From positions 372,001 to 436,000 of the forward strand of contig OX639991.1 of assembly GCA_951828585.1 (NCBI GenBank): 64,000 nucleotides of DNA, written 5' to 3'. The position numbers were made by a program, and so were the translations under genes. Below are positions 10,976 to 16,768 of the stretch, in pieces. Source of the stretch: Longimicrobiales bacterium (lineage in GTDB: Bacteria; Gemmatimonadota; Gemmatimonadetes; Longimicrobiales; Gaopeijiaceae). The notes beneath the pieces were generated by a model. It worked only from the letters and a program-made list of their open reading frames with translations, had not been told where the DNA came from and ran no database searches. Within the stretch, counting starts at the first letter, position 1; each line of letters starts with the position of its first letter.

Positions 10976-11208
10976 GGGAGGGGCGCGCGAGCAGGCGGAG
11001 GCCGAGGCCTGCGACGCGCGCTGGCAGGCCACCGAAGCCGGTCAGGTTCGGTGAGTCGGGCACGGCCGCGCCGGCCGGGGACGAGGCGGTCGGACGCGTC
11101 TAATGCCGGGGAGCCAGGATACTCCCCGTGGCCACACTTCGCGTGTCCCCAGGAGAGGCTGGCGGGGGGCCGTGCCCCCTCTGACCCCCGAAACGGAAAC
11201 GGCGCGCC
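10976..11208. other. Gap before the mobilization genes
   Basis: I see no gene in this stretch. It would be the natural place for the origin of transfer recognised by the MobC/relaxase pair, but no nic motif is recognisable by eye. Confidence 0.25.
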
Positions 11209-11547
11209 GTGAGCGCCGGACGCGCCGTTTGGGTGAAGGTCCGCGCCAGCGAGGCGGAGCGTGCCGAGTGGCACGCCAAGGCGCGCGCCGCTGGCCTCAC
11301 GCTGTCGGATCTGGTGCGCCGGTCGGTGGGCCGGACGCGCACCTGGACGGTGGCGCACGCCGAGGTCGAGCGCGAGCGCACCCGCCAGATCGCGCGGATC
11401 GGGAACAACCTCAACCAGATCGCTCGGTGGGCGAACACCCACCGGGGGTCCATCGAAGGCGTCGAGGTGATCGGCCACCTCATCGCCATCAAGCGGACGG
11501 TCGCGGCGCTGGCTCCCGTCGAGAGTTCGGACGCGGATGCTGGCTAA
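11209..11547 (+). CDS. mobC: MobC-type mobilization accessory protein
   Basis: The 112-aa protein has the MobC-like layout. A ribbon-helix-helix-like N-terminus (VWVKVRASEAERAEWHAKAR) is followed by the family hallmark IARIGNNLNQIARWANTHRG at about residues 61-80. Such proteins bind the origin of transfer and help the relaxase nick it. The start is GTG at 11209. The gene overlaps the relaxase gene by 11 bp, the usual coupling. It indicates a mobilizable plasmid or integrative element. Confidence 0.88.
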   Translation: MSAGRAVWVKVRASEAERAEWHAKARAAGLTLSDLVRRSVGRTRTWTVAHAEVERERTRQIARIGNNLNQIARWANTHRGSIEGVEVIGHLIAIKRTVAALAPVESSDADAG

Positions 11548-12448
11548 GTTCCTGGCCCGCGGAACCAGCTCGGCGCGCGACGCGGCCGACTACCTCCTCG
11601 GGGAGCGGGACGCGGCCGGGAAGCCGCGCGAGGGCGTCGAAGTCCTCCGGGGCGATCCGAACGAAGTGGCCGCCGTGGCCGACTCGCTCGACTTCGAGCA
11701 CAGGTACACGTCCGGCGTGATCGCGTGGGCGCCGGAAGACGAGCCCACCGACGCCGAGATCGAGACGGTCCCGGATGCCTTCGAGGACATAGCGTGGACC
11801 GGGCTCGAACCCGACCGCTACGCCTGGGCGGTCGTGCTGCACCGCGAGCGCGGCGGTGGCGCTCACGTCCACATCCTCGCCGCGCGGTGCGACCTGGAGA
11901 CTGGGCGAAGCCTCAACATCGGGCCTCCGGGATGGCGGAGGACGTTCGATCCGCTCCACGACGCCTTCAACCAGCAGATCGCTCGGTCATCGGACGCAGG
12001 CGAAATAGCTCGCAATGCGGCTGACGGTCGTTGGGATCTGCTTGATTGCGGTCGCGGCCTTGGGTGCGGTCATGGGCCTTCTCACCTCGCGCCGTTTGAG
12101 GCCGAAGACCATCGCACACCTCGGAGCCGTGCGGGATCACGATTGGACGGAGAACCAAGCGCGGCTAAACAGGTACAGACACACGGCTCGGAAGGCGGCC
12201 AAGATGGCTCCGGGATCCGTCCGTCACGTCCCCATTGCGGACCGCCGCCTCGACTCGATGCCTTGGATGGGTGTCCTGGTACAGCTGCTGCTGGATTTGC
12301 GGGAGGCCGAATGGTCGCCGACCGCCCATGGGCTGCACCCGACCGCGTTGCGATCCAAGGGTCTGAGTCCCCGGAGTCAGTCGCCAATCGAAGGAAGCGC
12401 GATGACCGAAAGTTACGTTTCGAAGCTCGAACCAAGCCCGCGTCATGA
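11537..12448 (+). pseudogene. MobA/VirD2-like relaxase, truncated after the catalytic domain
   Basis: Residues 1 to about 153 are a relaxase N-terminal domain. They show MLAKFLARGTSSARDAADYL with the usual early region, then WAVVLHRERGGGAHVHILAA with the paired histidines of motif III, and LETGRSLNI. After FDPLHDAFNQQ (about 11985) the frame stays open to 12448, but the sequence no longer resembles a relaxase and looks like antisense or non-coding DNA. The C-terminal half is therefore missing. The element probably can no longer mobilise itself. Confidence 0.75.
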
Positions 12449-12670: not shown

Positions 12671-13177
12671 ATGACCATGAGCTTGTCCAGAGTATTTCCA
12701 CAGGCAGCGTTGATTGCCAGCGTTGCCACTCTCCTAGCGTTTTCCGCGTGGCCAGCGCCGATTTCCGCTCAGGGGTGCGGTCGTTGTTACTCTCACGTTC
12801 TGTTTGACTACGAATTCTACAGCTTCAGCGCTTGGGGTAGCCCCCTGCCGACGCACCTCTGTGACAATACGGGCGGCTGTCATGTTTGGCCCCACCCGGG
12901 TCCTTGCGACGACTACCACCTACGTTGTTACCTCGCGGAAGTACCGAGCGCCGAATCCGCAATCGTCGAAGGCAACGCCGTGAATCTGAAGGAAGTCCTT
13001 TCCAGTTCGGACAACTGGGATTTTGCGGCGGCAGACCGTGCCCTCTCATTCACATGCTCGCGTTACACTGTGGCCAGGTACGTGCTCCCGGAAGAGTTGG
13101 CTAGGGTGGCGACGAACCTATCGCCAGGAATAAGAGCTGACGCACAGCAAACCGGCGCGGAACCTCGACGAGACTGA
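12671..13177 (+). CDS. Secreted Cys-rich protein, unknown family
   Basis: The 168-aa protein has a signal peptide (residues 1-34, cleavage after PISA-Q). The mature part has cysteines at 36, 39, 64, 70, 79 and 86 and near residue 129. The clusters are GCGRCYSH, LCDNTGGCHVW and PGPCDDYHLRC, with several histidines nearby, so disulfides or metal binding are possible. AGAGG precedes the ATG; a second ATG two codons later is an alternative. The gene is 12 bp upstream of a beta-propeller gene and is probably in its operon. Both lie inside a decayed mobilizable element. The function is unknown. Confidence 0.7.
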   Translation: MTMSLSRVFPQAALIASVATLLAFSAWPAPISAQGCGRCYSHVLFDYEFYSFSAWGSPLPTHLCDNTGGCHVWPHPGPCDDYHLRCYLAEVPSAESAIVEGNAVNLKEVLSSSDNWDFAAADRALSFTCSRYTVARYVLPEELARVATNLSPGIRADAQQTGAEPRRD

Positions 13178-13189
13178 AGATTACCGAGC

Positions 13190-14383
13190 ATGAACTCAGC
13201 AACGGACGTTCCATTGGTGTCCTCTCTGCCGACTGCGGCTACGACTACTGGCGCGGCAGGGAGGGCACCGTGCCTAGCCGGCGCGGCCCTGTTGTCACTA
13301 GCGTCGGTGTTCGGCTCAGGAGTTGCCCAGGAAGTAGTTGAGATTGGCGATCGGATCACCTGTCCCAGTTGCGTGATCGAAGTAGGAACGCCCATAACTC
13401 TCGCTGCCCCGACGCAGCATGTGTATTTCACGAGTCTTCCGCCCCCTATTCTCGCGCGCGACCGCGAGGGCAACTACATCGTAGCTCGCGTCGGCGGGGA
13501 CGCGGTGGTCGCCGTGTTCGGACCGGACGGCAGGTTTAGGTCATCGTATGGAAGGTTAGGCGAGGGTCCGGAAGAGTTCGCCGCCGTTCCGATGGGGATA
13601 GCAGTCGGAGAGAGAGACGTTATATACGCGATTGATCCACAGCATCTCCACACGCTCGCCCCCCAAGCCGAGCGCGGCCTAGATAAAGTCCAGGTGCCTG
13701 TCTTTGCAAATGCCGCCGTGGTCTTGGAGAGCGGAATCGCGGTTCAGGCCACGCTCCGCACAGAGGCCGGAATTACGACCGTTCAGATTCTTCAGCCAGA
13801 CGGGACAATTCAGGCAAGCATTGGAATCGCTGAGACAAAGGACGAGGCGGATCCGCAGTCGGAATCTATCAGCCTGCCGCGCGTCCTGGGGAGATCGAAC
13901 GATGGCGCTGATGTCTGGATTGGACCCTTAGACCGCTACCAGATCATCCGCTTGGGTCCTGACGGAGGAGAACAGACTCGCATCGAAAGGGTTTCCGAGT
14001 GGTTTCAACCTTACTCCAACACACCAGGGGCACCGTTTCGCGCGCCTGCGGGACCGAGGCTAGGGGGCATCCATCAGGATGCGGAAGGGCTGCTCTGGAC
14101 TGCAATCAGTCGGGCTCCTCATGACTTCTCGCCCGCTAGTGAAACCCCGTCTGGTGTCGAGGGACCGCGCCTGGGTCCGTTCATTGACATGAATCGGTTC
14201 CTGCACGTCACAGTGGAGGTACTTGATCCGGTAACAGGGGAACTGATTGCGCGCCATGCCTTCGACGAGTTTGTCCGGTTCGTCAGCACGCCAGATGACG
14301 ATGTCCTAGTATACTCGCTTCATCCGGATTCGCTTGGCAATATCGACTGCGTCATCAGGCCCTTGAAGCTCCAGCGGCCGTAG
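13190..14383 (+). CDS. 6-bladed beta-propeller-like exported protein
   Basis: The 397-aa protein has an N-terminal hydrophobic export segment (about residues 26-46, ending SGVAQ). Next comes a GDRITCPSC motif and then repeated blade strands such as ILARDREGNYIVARVGGDAV, VFGPDGRFRSSYGRLGEGPE, WIGPLDRYQIIRLGPDG and VEVLDPVTGELIARHAF. This resembles the NHL/6-bladed propeller proteins common in Gemmatimonadota and Bacteroidota. It probably works in the periplasm or outside the cell. It shares an operon with the Cys-rich protein just upstream. No enzyme residues are visible. Confidence 0.72.
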   Translation: MNSATDVPLVSSLPTAATTTGAAGRAPCLAGAALLSLASVFGSGVAQEVVEIGDRITCPSCVIEVGTPITLAAPTQHVYFTSLPPPILARDREGNYIVARVGGDAVVAVFGPDGRFRSSYGRLGEGPEEFAAVPMGIAVGERDVIYAIDPQHLHTLAPQAERGLDKVQVPVFANAAVVLESGIAVQATLRTEAGITTVQILQPDGTIQASIGIAETKDEADPQSESISLPRVLGRSNDGADVWIGPLDRYQIIRLGPDGGEQTRIERVSEWFQPYSNTPGAPFRAPAGPRLGGIHQDAEGLLWTAISRAPHDFSPASETPSGVEGPRLGPFIDMNRFLHVTVEVLDPVTGELIARHAFDEFVRFVSTPDDDVLVYSLHPDSLGNIDCVIRPLKLQRP

Positions 14384-14515
14384 CTGGGTTGGGATTCCCG
14401 TGCTGACCCATCTTCGTGATCCGCCCCCAGCCGCTGGCGGCCATTCTGTCGAAGGGTAGCTATGGACCTCCTCGGAGTCCGGCTCCGGCCGGCGGGGCCG
14501 AATACGGTAAGGAGC

Positions 14516-14528
14516 CTCGAATCCGCAA
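14516..14528 (-). repeat. Possible second att-like copy
   Basis: The minus strand reads TTGCGGATTCGAG, 12 of 13 identical to TTGCGGGTTCGAG at 10472-10484 and in the same orientation. Direct repeats of a tRNA T-loop core on both sides of mobilization genes fit an integrated element of about 4 kb. Confidence 0.35.
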
Positions 14529-14559
14529 CACACGACCTTCCGGGAGAGGGTAGGTGATG

Positions 14560-14583
14560 TCTAGTCCCAAAACAAGGACATTC
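14560..14583 (+). mobile_element. Solitary IS1380-type end
   Basis: CTAGTCCCAAAACAAGGACA followed by TTC matches the left end of the IS1380-family element at 730-750 (CTAG then GCCCAAAACAAGGACGTTC) with two differences. No other part of the element is present. It abuts, and changes the last codons of, the integrase fragment. Confidence 0.65.
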
Positions 14584-14815
14584 CATGAGCCGCCGCCGAC
14601 GCTCGAACAGGTACGTGCGTCGGTACGCCGCCTCTACTTGGTTGCGAACCACATGGGCCAACGCCGCCTCGGCAACCTCGCGGGGGTGATCGGTCTCGTC
14701 GGCGGCCCAGTCCCGGAACGATGACCGGAAGCCGTGGGGCACGGCCCCGAGCCTCTTGAGCAGAAAGACAAGTGTATCCGAAAGCCGAACGACATCAAGC
14801 AGAACCCCCCTTCGG
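14584..14815 (-). pseudogene. Tyrosine recombinase (P4-type integrase) C-terminal fragment
   Basis: The minus strand encodes LSDTLVFLLKRLGAVPHGFR then SSFRDWAADETDHPREVAEA and AYRRTYLFERRRRLM. HGFRSSFRDWA holds the catalytic His-x-x-Arg of box II, and AYRRTYLFERRR holds the tyrosine nucleophile region (Y of AYRRT). All earlier parts are gone and the extreme end is replaced by an IS1380-type terminus. P4-type integrases insert at tRNA 3' ends, which agrees with the relic at 10458. Confidence 0.75.
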
Positions 14816-14826
14816 TCCCCCTGAAT

Positions 14827-14878
14827 CTACTCGGAAGGCAACTCTGAATAGACCTCTTCAGACCTCACTTCCGAGTAG
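14827..14878. terminator. Large hairpin at the GH3 3' end
   Basis: CTACTCGGAAG (14827-14837) pairs perfectly with CTTCCGAGTAG (14868-14878), and TCTGAA (14843-14848) pairs with TTCAGA (14857-14862) inside it. The GH3 stop codon (14858-14860) lies within the hairpin. No T-run follows, so it may be an mRNA-end stabiliser or a repeat-borne structure and not a true terminator. Confidence 0.5.
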
Positions 14879-16768
14879 CCGCAATCCGTACCCCCAGGGA
14901 AAGAGCACCTCCCCCCCCACCCACCCCATCCCCAACCGCCCCACAAAGTCAAAGTCCCCAAACAACACATCCGCCACCCCACCCCCCTCCGACCCCGGCA
15001 GCCACGCCACCACAAACCCCGCCGACGCGGCCAGCTCCTCATCCACCACCAGCGGCCGCCCGGAAACCAGCACCGCCACCACCGGTATTCCCCGCCCACT
15101 CAGCCCCCGAATCGTCGCCAGATCCTCCGGGTGCAGCGCCGCCAACTCCAGCGTGTCACCATACGGCTTCAGCACCCCCGCCCCCGCGGGCAAGTGATTC
15201 GTCCCCGGCCGCACCGGACTCTCCTCCCGAATATCCCCCAGCCCCTCGGCATACGGACGCTCCCCGATCACCACAACAGCCACATCAAAATCCCCCTCCT
15301 CGCCCTCGCCCTGCGTCCCCCCTACACCCTCCTCCTCGCCCACACCCTCAACATCCCACGATCCCCCCACCCCCCCCAACACCGCCCCAGGCGCCACCGC
15401 CTCAATCCCCTCCCAAACCGAAGTCCCCCCCTCAATCCGGTCATTCCCCAACACCCCCTGCCACTCCACCGTGAACCCCCCACACAACCGCCCCCGGTCA
15501 TGCGCCCCCCGCCCCGTCACCAGAATCCGCGCACCCTTGTCCAACGGCAGCACCCCACCCTCGTTCTTCAACAACACCAACGACTTCCTCACCGCCTCCC
15601 GGGCCACCTCCCGGTGCTCACGCGACCCAAAGCTGCTCCCATTCGCCCCCCGCCGACCCCACGGCCGCCCCCGCTCGAAAAGCCCACTCACAAACTTCAC
15701 CCGGAGAATCCGCTCAACCGCATCGTCAATCCGTTCCACCGGCACATCCCCCCGCTCCACCCTCTCCCGCAACGCCGCGATGAACGCCTTCCAAGCCTCC
15801 GGCACCATCACCATGTCGATCCCGGCATTCACCGCCATCGCCACCGCATCACCGTAGTCCTCAGCCAGCGGATCCAGCCCGTTCCAGTCCGATACCACGA
15901 AACCCCCGAACCCCATCTCCCCCTTCAGCACGTCCTGGATCAGGTAGCGGTGCGCGTGGCATTTCTCGCCATTCCAGCTGCTCAGCGACACCATGACCGT
16001 CATCGCCCCGGCCTCCAGCGCCGGCACATACGGCGCGATATGCACCCGCCGCAGCTCCTCCTCGTCCACGACCGTGTCGCCCTGGTCCACGCCGTCGCGG
16101 GTCCCCCCGTCCCCCACCCAATGCTTCGCACAGGCCAGGATTCCTTCCGGACCAAGCCCCACGAAATCGCCCACGCCCCCCGCACCCACCACACCCCCAC
16201 CCTGCAACCCCCTCACAATCCGCCCCGCGTATTCGCCCACCACCCCCGGATCCTCCGAGTAGCTCTCGTACGTCCGCCCCCAGCGCGGGTCCTGCGCCAC
16301 CGCTAGCGTGGGCGCGAAGGTCCAGTCCACACCCGCCGCCCGCACCTCCCGCGCCGTGATCCGCCCGATCCGCTCGATCAGCTCGGGGTCCCCCGCCGCG
16401 CCCAGGCCGATGTTGTGCGGGAAGATGGTCGCGCCCAGGACGTTGGCGTTCCCGTGGATCGCGTCCACGCCATAGAGGACCGGGATGGCCAGGTGGTCGT
16501 CGTCCTCCTCCATCGATGCGGACCAGTAGGCGTCGTTCATGGCCACCCAGTCGACCGGGCGGTTGTCGCCCGGGCATGAACCGCCGCCGCTGAGCACCGA
16601 GCCGATGTGGTACCGCTTGACCTCGGAGGGGCTGACGTGCATCCGTTCCGGCTGCGTCATCTGGCCGATCTTCTGGTCTAGGGTCATGCGGGCCAGCAGC
16701 CCGTGGACAAGTCGCGCCTTGCCAGCCCGGCGCCTCGCCACTCTCGGTGCTCGCGGGGCTTTATCCAC
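14858..16768 (-). CDS. Glycoside hydrolase family 3 (beta-glucosidase type)
   Basis: The 636-aa protein removes terminal sugars from beta-linked glucosides or oligosaccharides by a retaining mechanism. The N-terminal barrel has LLARMTLDQKIGQM at about residues 24-37, the substrate-binding KHW at 215-217 and the nucleophile Asp294 in GFVVSDWNG. The C-terminal sandwich begins near 395 (REAVRKSLVLLKNE). Residues about 465-510 form a Gly/Glu-rich insert (GGVGGSWDVEGVGEEEGVGG). No signal peptide is seen; the GTG start at 16768 lies in a repeated sequence (see 16700-16775), so the original N-terminus may have been altered. It follows the GH2-like gene by about 140 bp and probably acts on its products. 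Confidence 0.9.
   Translation of the reverse strand: MDKAPRAPRVARRRAGKARLVHGLLARMTLDQKIGQMTQPERMHVSPSEVKRYHIGSVLSGGGSCPGDNRPVDWVAMNDAYWSASMEEDDDHLAIPVLYGVDAIHGNANVLGATIFPHNIGLGAAGDPELIERIGRITAREVRAAGVDWTFAPTLAVAQDPRWGRTYESYSEDPGVVGEYAGRIVRGLQGGGVVGAGGVGDFVGLGPEGILACAKHWVGDGGTRDGVDQGDTVVDEEELRRVHIAPYVPALEAGAMTVMVSLSSWNGEKCHAHRYLIQDVLKGEMGFGGFVVSDWNGLDPLAEDYGDAVAMAVNAGIDMVMVPEAWKAFIAALRERVERGDVPVERIDDAVERILRVKFVSGLFERGRPWGRRGANGSSFGSREHREVAREAVRKSLVLLKNEGGVLPLDKGARILVTGRGAHDRGRLCGGFTVEWQGVLGNDRIEGGTSVWEGIEAVAPGAVLGGVGGSWDVEGVGEEEGVGGTQGEGEEGDFDVAVVVIGERPYAEGLGDIREESPVRPGTNHLPAGAGVLKPYGDTLELAALHPEDLATIRGLSGRGIPVVAVLVSGRPLVVDEELAASAGFVVAWLPGSEGGGVADVLFGDFDFVGRLGMGWVGGEVLFPWGYGLRLLGSEV

Follow-up and report, generated by a model that had tools for sequence, protein, structure and literature searches.

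Genes at the locus and their surroundings

The window, as the whole analyzed stretch of 64,000 nucleotides is called here, carries on its plus strand two neighboring open reading frames (ORFs), 12671–13177 (168 amino acids) and 13190–14383 (397 amino acids), which form the gene pair under study. The features of the pair and of its borders are:

11209–11547, plus strand: NikA/MobC-like mobilization gene, outside the pair (Pfam PF21983, E = 1.9e-14; PF05713, E = 8.1e-11)
11537–11973, plus strand: N-terminal remnant of a MobA/VirD2-like relaxase gene, outside the pair (PF03432 just below the cut-off; a repeat ends at 11973)
12671–13177, plus strand: gene of a secreted cysteine-rich protein of 168 amino acids with seven cysteines after the predicted signal peptide (residues 36, 39, 64, 70, 79, 86, and 129); ORF, member of a family of 85 matches
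12671–12772, plus strand: predicted signal peptide, approximately residues 1–34, ending in PAPISAQ (sequence and hydropathy script; approximate, made without a dedicated predictor)
12776–12928, plus strand: cysteine/histidine core C36-x2-C39 ... C64-x5-C70-H71 ... C79-x3-H83-x2-C86 (alignment of 71 sequences)
13055–13057, plus strand: codon of C129, the fifth invariant cysteine, in the C-terminal family motif R-x-A-x-Q-x-x-(G)C (alignment)
13178–13189, plus strand: 12-base gap between the stop of the Cys protein gene and the start of the propeller gene (ORF coordinates)
13190–14383, plus strand: gene of an exported NHL-like six-bladed propeller of 397 amino acids (AlphaFold2 model, structure matches, relatives)
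13361–13372, plus strand: N-terminal C-P-S-C motif of the propeller, residues 58–61, just after the signal peptide (sequence)
14320–14742, minus strand: C-terminal remnant of an integrase-like gene, outside the pair (PHROG integrase, E = 0.061, weak)

An earlier note on this DNA had described the 12-base spacing, the cysteine and histidine motifs, and the CPSC motif of the propeller, all of which are present in the two ORFs. Its claim that both products are exported agrees with their signal-peptide-like N-termini, each with a hydrophobic run and a terminal AQ, which were predicted by inspection of the sequence, supplemented by a hydropathy script in the case of the Cys protein, rather than by a dedicated predictor.

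The same note had placed the pair inside a mobile element and had proposed a transferable surface or signaling function for it. The pair indeed is located between the NikA/MobC and relaxase genes (11209–11973) and the integrase-like piece, but relaxase and integrase are remnants, and an intact gene of either type was not found in the stretch examined around the pair. Transferability found no support, as neither the Cys protein nor the propeller matched any of 72,556 plasmid records, and the 162 pattern matches obtained with the propeller profile on viral contigs included no relative. The stretch 11107–11973, which encompasses the MobC gene and the relaxase N-terminus, recurs at G000:C1:1516261–1517127 in the same genome (G000) with 83% identity. 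The third copy, at 1206440, is partial and stops at the same base, 11973, which gives the stretch the appearance of an independent repeat unit. Ten loci compared within the genus share the neighboring glycosidase genes, and their homology with the window reaches left only to approximately 14829–14969. The side of the locus on which the pair resides thus is lineage-specific and the site is variable; a precise empty site was not found among these ten loci. The window pair may have arrived by transfer.

A family of cysteine-rich proteins in the Gemmatimonadota

The Cys protein of the window has no match in Pfam, NCBIfam, PADLOC, or the PDB, and the best hit of a PDB profile search with its family had an E value of 0.61, with unrelated protein names. 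A first scan of genome contigs with this protein as lone query retrieved nothing. A search of 395 genomes of the phylum with the window Cys protein revealed a diverged pair of the same layout in a relative from the same genus (L003), with 47% identity of the Cys protein, 55% identity of the propeller, and the propeller located 10 bases downstream. Several propellers of the window's own genome, identified by means of a propeller profile, were also preceded by unrecognized Cys proteins. A profile built from these proteins retrieved 11 members from the own genome, each with a propeller directly downstream, one of which is a truncated remnant.

At the level of the phylum, profile A5 had matches in at least 36 of the 395 genomes and at least 16 of 138 genera, a distribution that is a lower bound since eight candidates per genome were scored. 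Profile A9 had matches in 15 of the 23 genomes of the genus, with up to 12 copies per genome. The combined census comprises 85 places, namely 63 rows obtained with A5 and 22 A9 rows taken as new places; the remaining A9 rows represent the same places with shifted ends. One further match, G173:C8:52234–52599, was inadvertently omitted from the A9 additions; a propeller follows its ORF at a distance of 13 bases, and its short A5 fragment was counted as lacking an ORF. Most members have a length of approximately 150–230 amino acids and a conserved C-terminal half. They fall into two groups, types I and II, the latter stemming mostly from the A9 search.

The window pair thus is one of numerous diverged representatives of an undescribed Cys protein–propeller unit in the Gemmatimonadota. 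"Undescribed" here means absent from the family libraries used and from the literature on the topics searched. Nothing describing such a system was encountered in the portions of the literature covered on NVEALA, DUF5128, Gemmatimonadota beta-propellers (papers judged by title), and six-bladed propellers of sponge symbionts, and the earlier note's view of the pair as an undescribed system is borne out in this sense, also by the lack of Pfam, NCBIfam, and PDB relatives of the Cys protein.

Conserved adjacency and common descent of the two genes

A six-bladed propeller gene on the same strand, with a gap of at most 600 bases, adjoins the Cys protein gene at 76 of the 85 places (49 downstream, 22 upstream, 5 on both sides). 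When the four places that served as seeds and had first been noticed beside propellers (G000:C1:3812811, 698099, 2848133, and 1370116) are left out, 72 of 81 remain. Two places lack a usable ORF and seven have no neighboring propeller. Among the latter, the one in G068 is the second Cys protein gene in a propeller–Cys–Cys row, the one in G217 is probably a false positive, and about five (G250, G272, G346, G367, and G166:C18) look like real exceptions. The profile search had been proposed by the earlier note, which would have abandoned its reading without conserved co-occurrence in other genomes; co-occurrence with a propeller is what the search recovered.

Propellers are so numerous in the own genome (approximately 172 ORFs, 4.5% of the sequence) that the two genes might lack any functional link, with accidental adjacency or old duplicates that hitch-hike together. 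Against this reading, all 12 Cys protein genes of this genome have an adjacent propeller, compared to one of 26 TonB receptor genes used as a control from the same genome, in which about 4% of each strand falls in or near a same-strand propeller; moreover, adjacency is kept where the gene order flips. We regard the absence of a functional link as highly improbable, and accidental adjacency was rejected on the basis of the receptor control and the gene order flips. The pairwise distances among Cys proteins and among their propellers correlate with r = 0.855 (61 pairs; best of 2000 shuffles, 0.133) and, if only distant pairs are considered, with r = 0.488 (best of 500 shuffles, 0.121). This agreement indicates joint descent of the two genes, and the flips of gene order with retained adjacency argue for functional linkage rather than mere inheritance of a fixed arrangement. 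These analyses show that the Cys protein gene and the six-bladed propeller gene have remained neighbors, with either one first, while the pairs duplicated and diverged deeply. None of the fetched ORFs encodes both a Cys domain and a propeller in one protein.

Fold and classes of the partner propellers

The AlphaFold2 model of the window propeller (mean pLDDT 78.4, pTM 0.80; 23 sequences) matched the NHL propeller of Brat (5ex7_A; Z = 22.1, rmsd 3.2 Å over 260 residues), the Bacteroides DUF4221 protein 3s9j (Z = 20.8, rmsd 3.8 over 318 residues), and Bacteroides BF0058 (4raa; Z = 19.1, rmsd 4.3 over 299 residues). A six-bladed, NHL-like fold is therefore supported by a predicted structure that matches over most of the domain. 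With these proteins and the NHL propellers of TRIM2/3/71 the window propeller shares the fold only, the sequence identity being 9–20%. The eukaryotic ones among them are RNA-binding cytosolic proteins, and several of the NHL structures among the matches were solved with RNA. The model also resembles peptidyl-alpha-hydroxyglycine amidating lyase (3fvz; Z = 19.2), an NHL-type propeller of the secretory pathway with a metal and disulfides, for which to our knowledge no Cys protein partner has been described.

DUF5128 (PF17170) scored 13.4 bits against the window propeller, below the Pfam cut-off of 22.9, which was passed by the propellers of the relatives L020 and L039 (31.7 and 39.2); 8 of 11 related propellers matched at E = 0.01 or better. 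The window propeller differs from this family also by its N-terminal C-x2-C motif and, in pairs, by the Cys protein partner. Its nearest named relative (57% identity) is found in L116 (COS4_bin_2), and most other matches stem from metagenome-assembled genomes (MAGs) of Gemmatimonadetes or Gemmatimonadota, which makes Gemmatimonadota the most likely affiliation of the window's genome. Isolate labels such as COS, RHO, and APA suggest sponge hosts.

The own genome had 140 matches to the propeller profile, and the fetched regions contained 172 propeller ORFs. No paper on a set of well over a hundred exported propellers such as this one was found in the literature searched. Within the 64-kb window there is just one propeller gene, 13190–14383. 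An N-terminal motif resembling C-x2-C occurs in 26 of the 172 ORFs. A type-I Cys protein gene is located beside 10 of these 26 and beside one of the other 146, the latter being a truncated remnant; these counts refer to type I only, and the single type-II gene of this genome (1840211) was not recognized in them. Type-II Cys proteins pair with another propeller class that has an N-terminus like RDSAGIEIVENHAP and mostly lacks C-x2-C, and the motif thus is no general docking site. Many propellers with the motif in named MAGs also stand alone, as do 16 of the 26 in the own genome, and hence the propeller can do without the Cys protein. The association thus is one-sided, since a propeller is to be expected beside a Cys protein gene but not the reverse.

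Some window-type propellers are associated with incomplete genes. L116 has two of them and no full Cys protein gene, with a remnant of a Cys protein C-terminus (YVLPQELRHAVDLLP) upstream of the second. The locus G000:C1:2750517–2752857 (L113, L024, L037) contains a window-type propeller in two pieces approximately 1.8 kb apart, one of which abuts an ORF that we take to be transposase-like; another window-type fragment, at 2470193, adjoins an ORF to which the same applies.

An odd number of cysteines

The number of cysteines after the predicted signal peptide is odd in all 73 family members counted: 5 in 12, 7 in 40, and 9 in 21. The count dropped 12 of the 85 places (2 without ORF, the apparent false positive in G217, and 9 truncated or lacking the core) and includes two sequences whose start lies too far upstream, which adds two cysteines and leaves parity unaffected. 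In the alignment of 71 sequences, from which two badly aligned rows had been removed, five core cysteines are invariant (C36, C39, C79, C86, and C129 in the window protein), and the histidines H71 and H83 are conserved in 97–99%. Extra cysteines number 0 (13 sequences), 2 (39), or 4 (19) in all 71 and most often flank H71, one on each side. By parsimony on the tree the number of cysteines changed at least 16 times, and 15 changes were even-sized; the single odd-sized change was put down to a mis-trimmed sequence that was counted with 4 cysteines and has 7 at full length. Exported propellers of the own genome, counted similarly, have an even number in 110 of 130 cases, including 58 without any cysteine.

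Matches to DsbA-like and VKOR proteins adjoin each other in the own genome, and disulfides are thus expected to form outside the cytoplasm. Exported bacterial proteins are reported to prefer even numbers of cysteines, in B. pseudomallei less strongly than in E. coli (PMC7678975, citing work on E. coli). A set that is always odd implies that one cysteine, or three, have another job, either as a free or reactive thiol or in metal binding by three cysteines and a histidine. The C-x2-C ... H-x2-C spacing would favor a metal site. The AlphaFold2 model of the Cys protein had a mean pLDDT of 52.5 (six sequences) and was poor over the cysteine core, so that no metal geometry can be read from it; its C-terminal part (helix–helix–strands–helix) alone reached approximately 77.

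Three other readings of the cysteines were tried and rejected. A disulfide between the two proteins is at odds with partners' cysteine parities that are uncorrelated and propellers that are mostly even; the first core cysteine is no lipoprotein cysteine, as between a few and approximately 70 residues separate it from the signal peptide; and C-type heme binding is contradicted by the C-x2-C of the Cys protein, which is followed by a variable residue, seldom a histidine.

The odd number in 73 of 73 members, together with the C-x2-C-like motif of many partner propellers, would also suit a redox or folding helper whose unpaired thiol acts on cysteines of its own propeller. Under this explanation it is difficult to see why pairing still holds for type-II partners, whose counted part is often devoid of cysteine (8 of 61 pairs), and a thioredoxin-like match was not found for the Cys protein. 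We consider such a helper unlikely.

Comparison with known systems and possible function

In the Bacteroidota, NVEALA (PF14055) peptides are often encoded beside six-bladed propellers, and their assumed role is that of a precursor with the propeller as receptor or scaffold. The earlier note had likened the layout of the window pair to that of NVEALA loci while stressing the different sequence, and both parts of the comparison stand: a small exported, cysteine-containing product is encoded beside an exported six-bladed propeller, and no protein of the own genome matches PF14055. NVEALA is a short peptide with an N-terminal NVEALA signature, which is absent from the 168-residue window protein, and the Cys family differs further by its five invariant cysteines and two histidines and by the occurrence of both gene orders. 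By analogy, the Cys protein might be a signal peptide or pheromone-like precursor and the propeller its receptor or processing scaffold, as the shared layout and the many diverged pairs would allow. The size of most members (approximately 150–230 amino acids) and their conserved C-terminal half are not those of a short variable peptide, PF14055 finds no counterpart in the genome, and no processing or export gene was seen beside the window pair among the window ORFs or by Pfam search. This analogy seems improbable to us, to about the same degree as the redox helper.

A polymorphic competition pair would consist of the Cys protein as a secreted toxin and the propeller as its exported immunity protein, with lone propellers as orphan immunity genes. 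Tandem arrays exist, such as the row of three pairs at G000:C1:3320707–3325219, whose last propeller is truncated; both partners diverge together; and orphan propellers do occur. This explanation is nevertheless somewhat less probable still, because gene order goes either way, most of the approximately 172 propeller ORFs have no Cys protein gene, and no toxin or immunity domain was matched in Pfam, NCBIfam, or PADLOC, libraries that a novel toxin could escape.

The explanation that we favor, at about even chances, is that the pair represents a dedicated two-protein exported unit, whose products act as a complex with a Cys3His metal site or a free thiol and serve as recognition modules. The two products would meet outside the cytoplasm, where the small Cys protein may dock on its NHL-type partner and act as a specific ligand or a cap. 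Two of the five core cysteines could form a disulfide, for which C79–C129 is our guess, and the other three together with one histidine would hold a metal, probably zinc; C36, C39, H83, and C86 are candidate ligands. The extra pairs of cysteines would provide extra disulfides. Alternatively, the odd cysteine would be a single free, reactive thiol. The many diverged copies might then constitute a repertoire of recognition modules at the surface or in the periplasm. A more far-reaching version of this dedicated unit is tentative and clearly less probable. It posits a new exported system of the Gemmatimonadota, in which a secretory protein that binds metal and whose cysteine number must be odd is matched, copy by copy, to its own NHL propeller, drawn from at least two propeller classes. 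This system would have been amplified, to as many as about a dozen copies in a genome, into a repertoire for recognition at the surface, possibly in association with sponge and coral hosts.

A partner family that is inherited together with its propellers and obeys a strict rule on cysteine number offers a concrete handle, with approximately 75 natural pairs on which joint structure predictions and pull-downs can be performed. The invariably odd number leads to a sharp chemical prediction, a metal or a free thiol, that can be tested on one purified protein, and the census demonstrates that gene adjacency can uncover protein families absent from Pfam and NCBIfam.

Two further gene arrangements were observed in the family. 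The subfamily with the motif CYDNxDGTAHxFG (L061 and L062, in G250 and G272) has no propeller neighbor and is adjoined by a small lipoprotein-like protein, which we take to resemble the periplasmic domain of ExbD/TolR. At L070 and L081 (G339 and G166), which belong to two genera, the propeller and the Cys protein gene are followed by a third gene with the motif RRCDADAGDLCFGGD.
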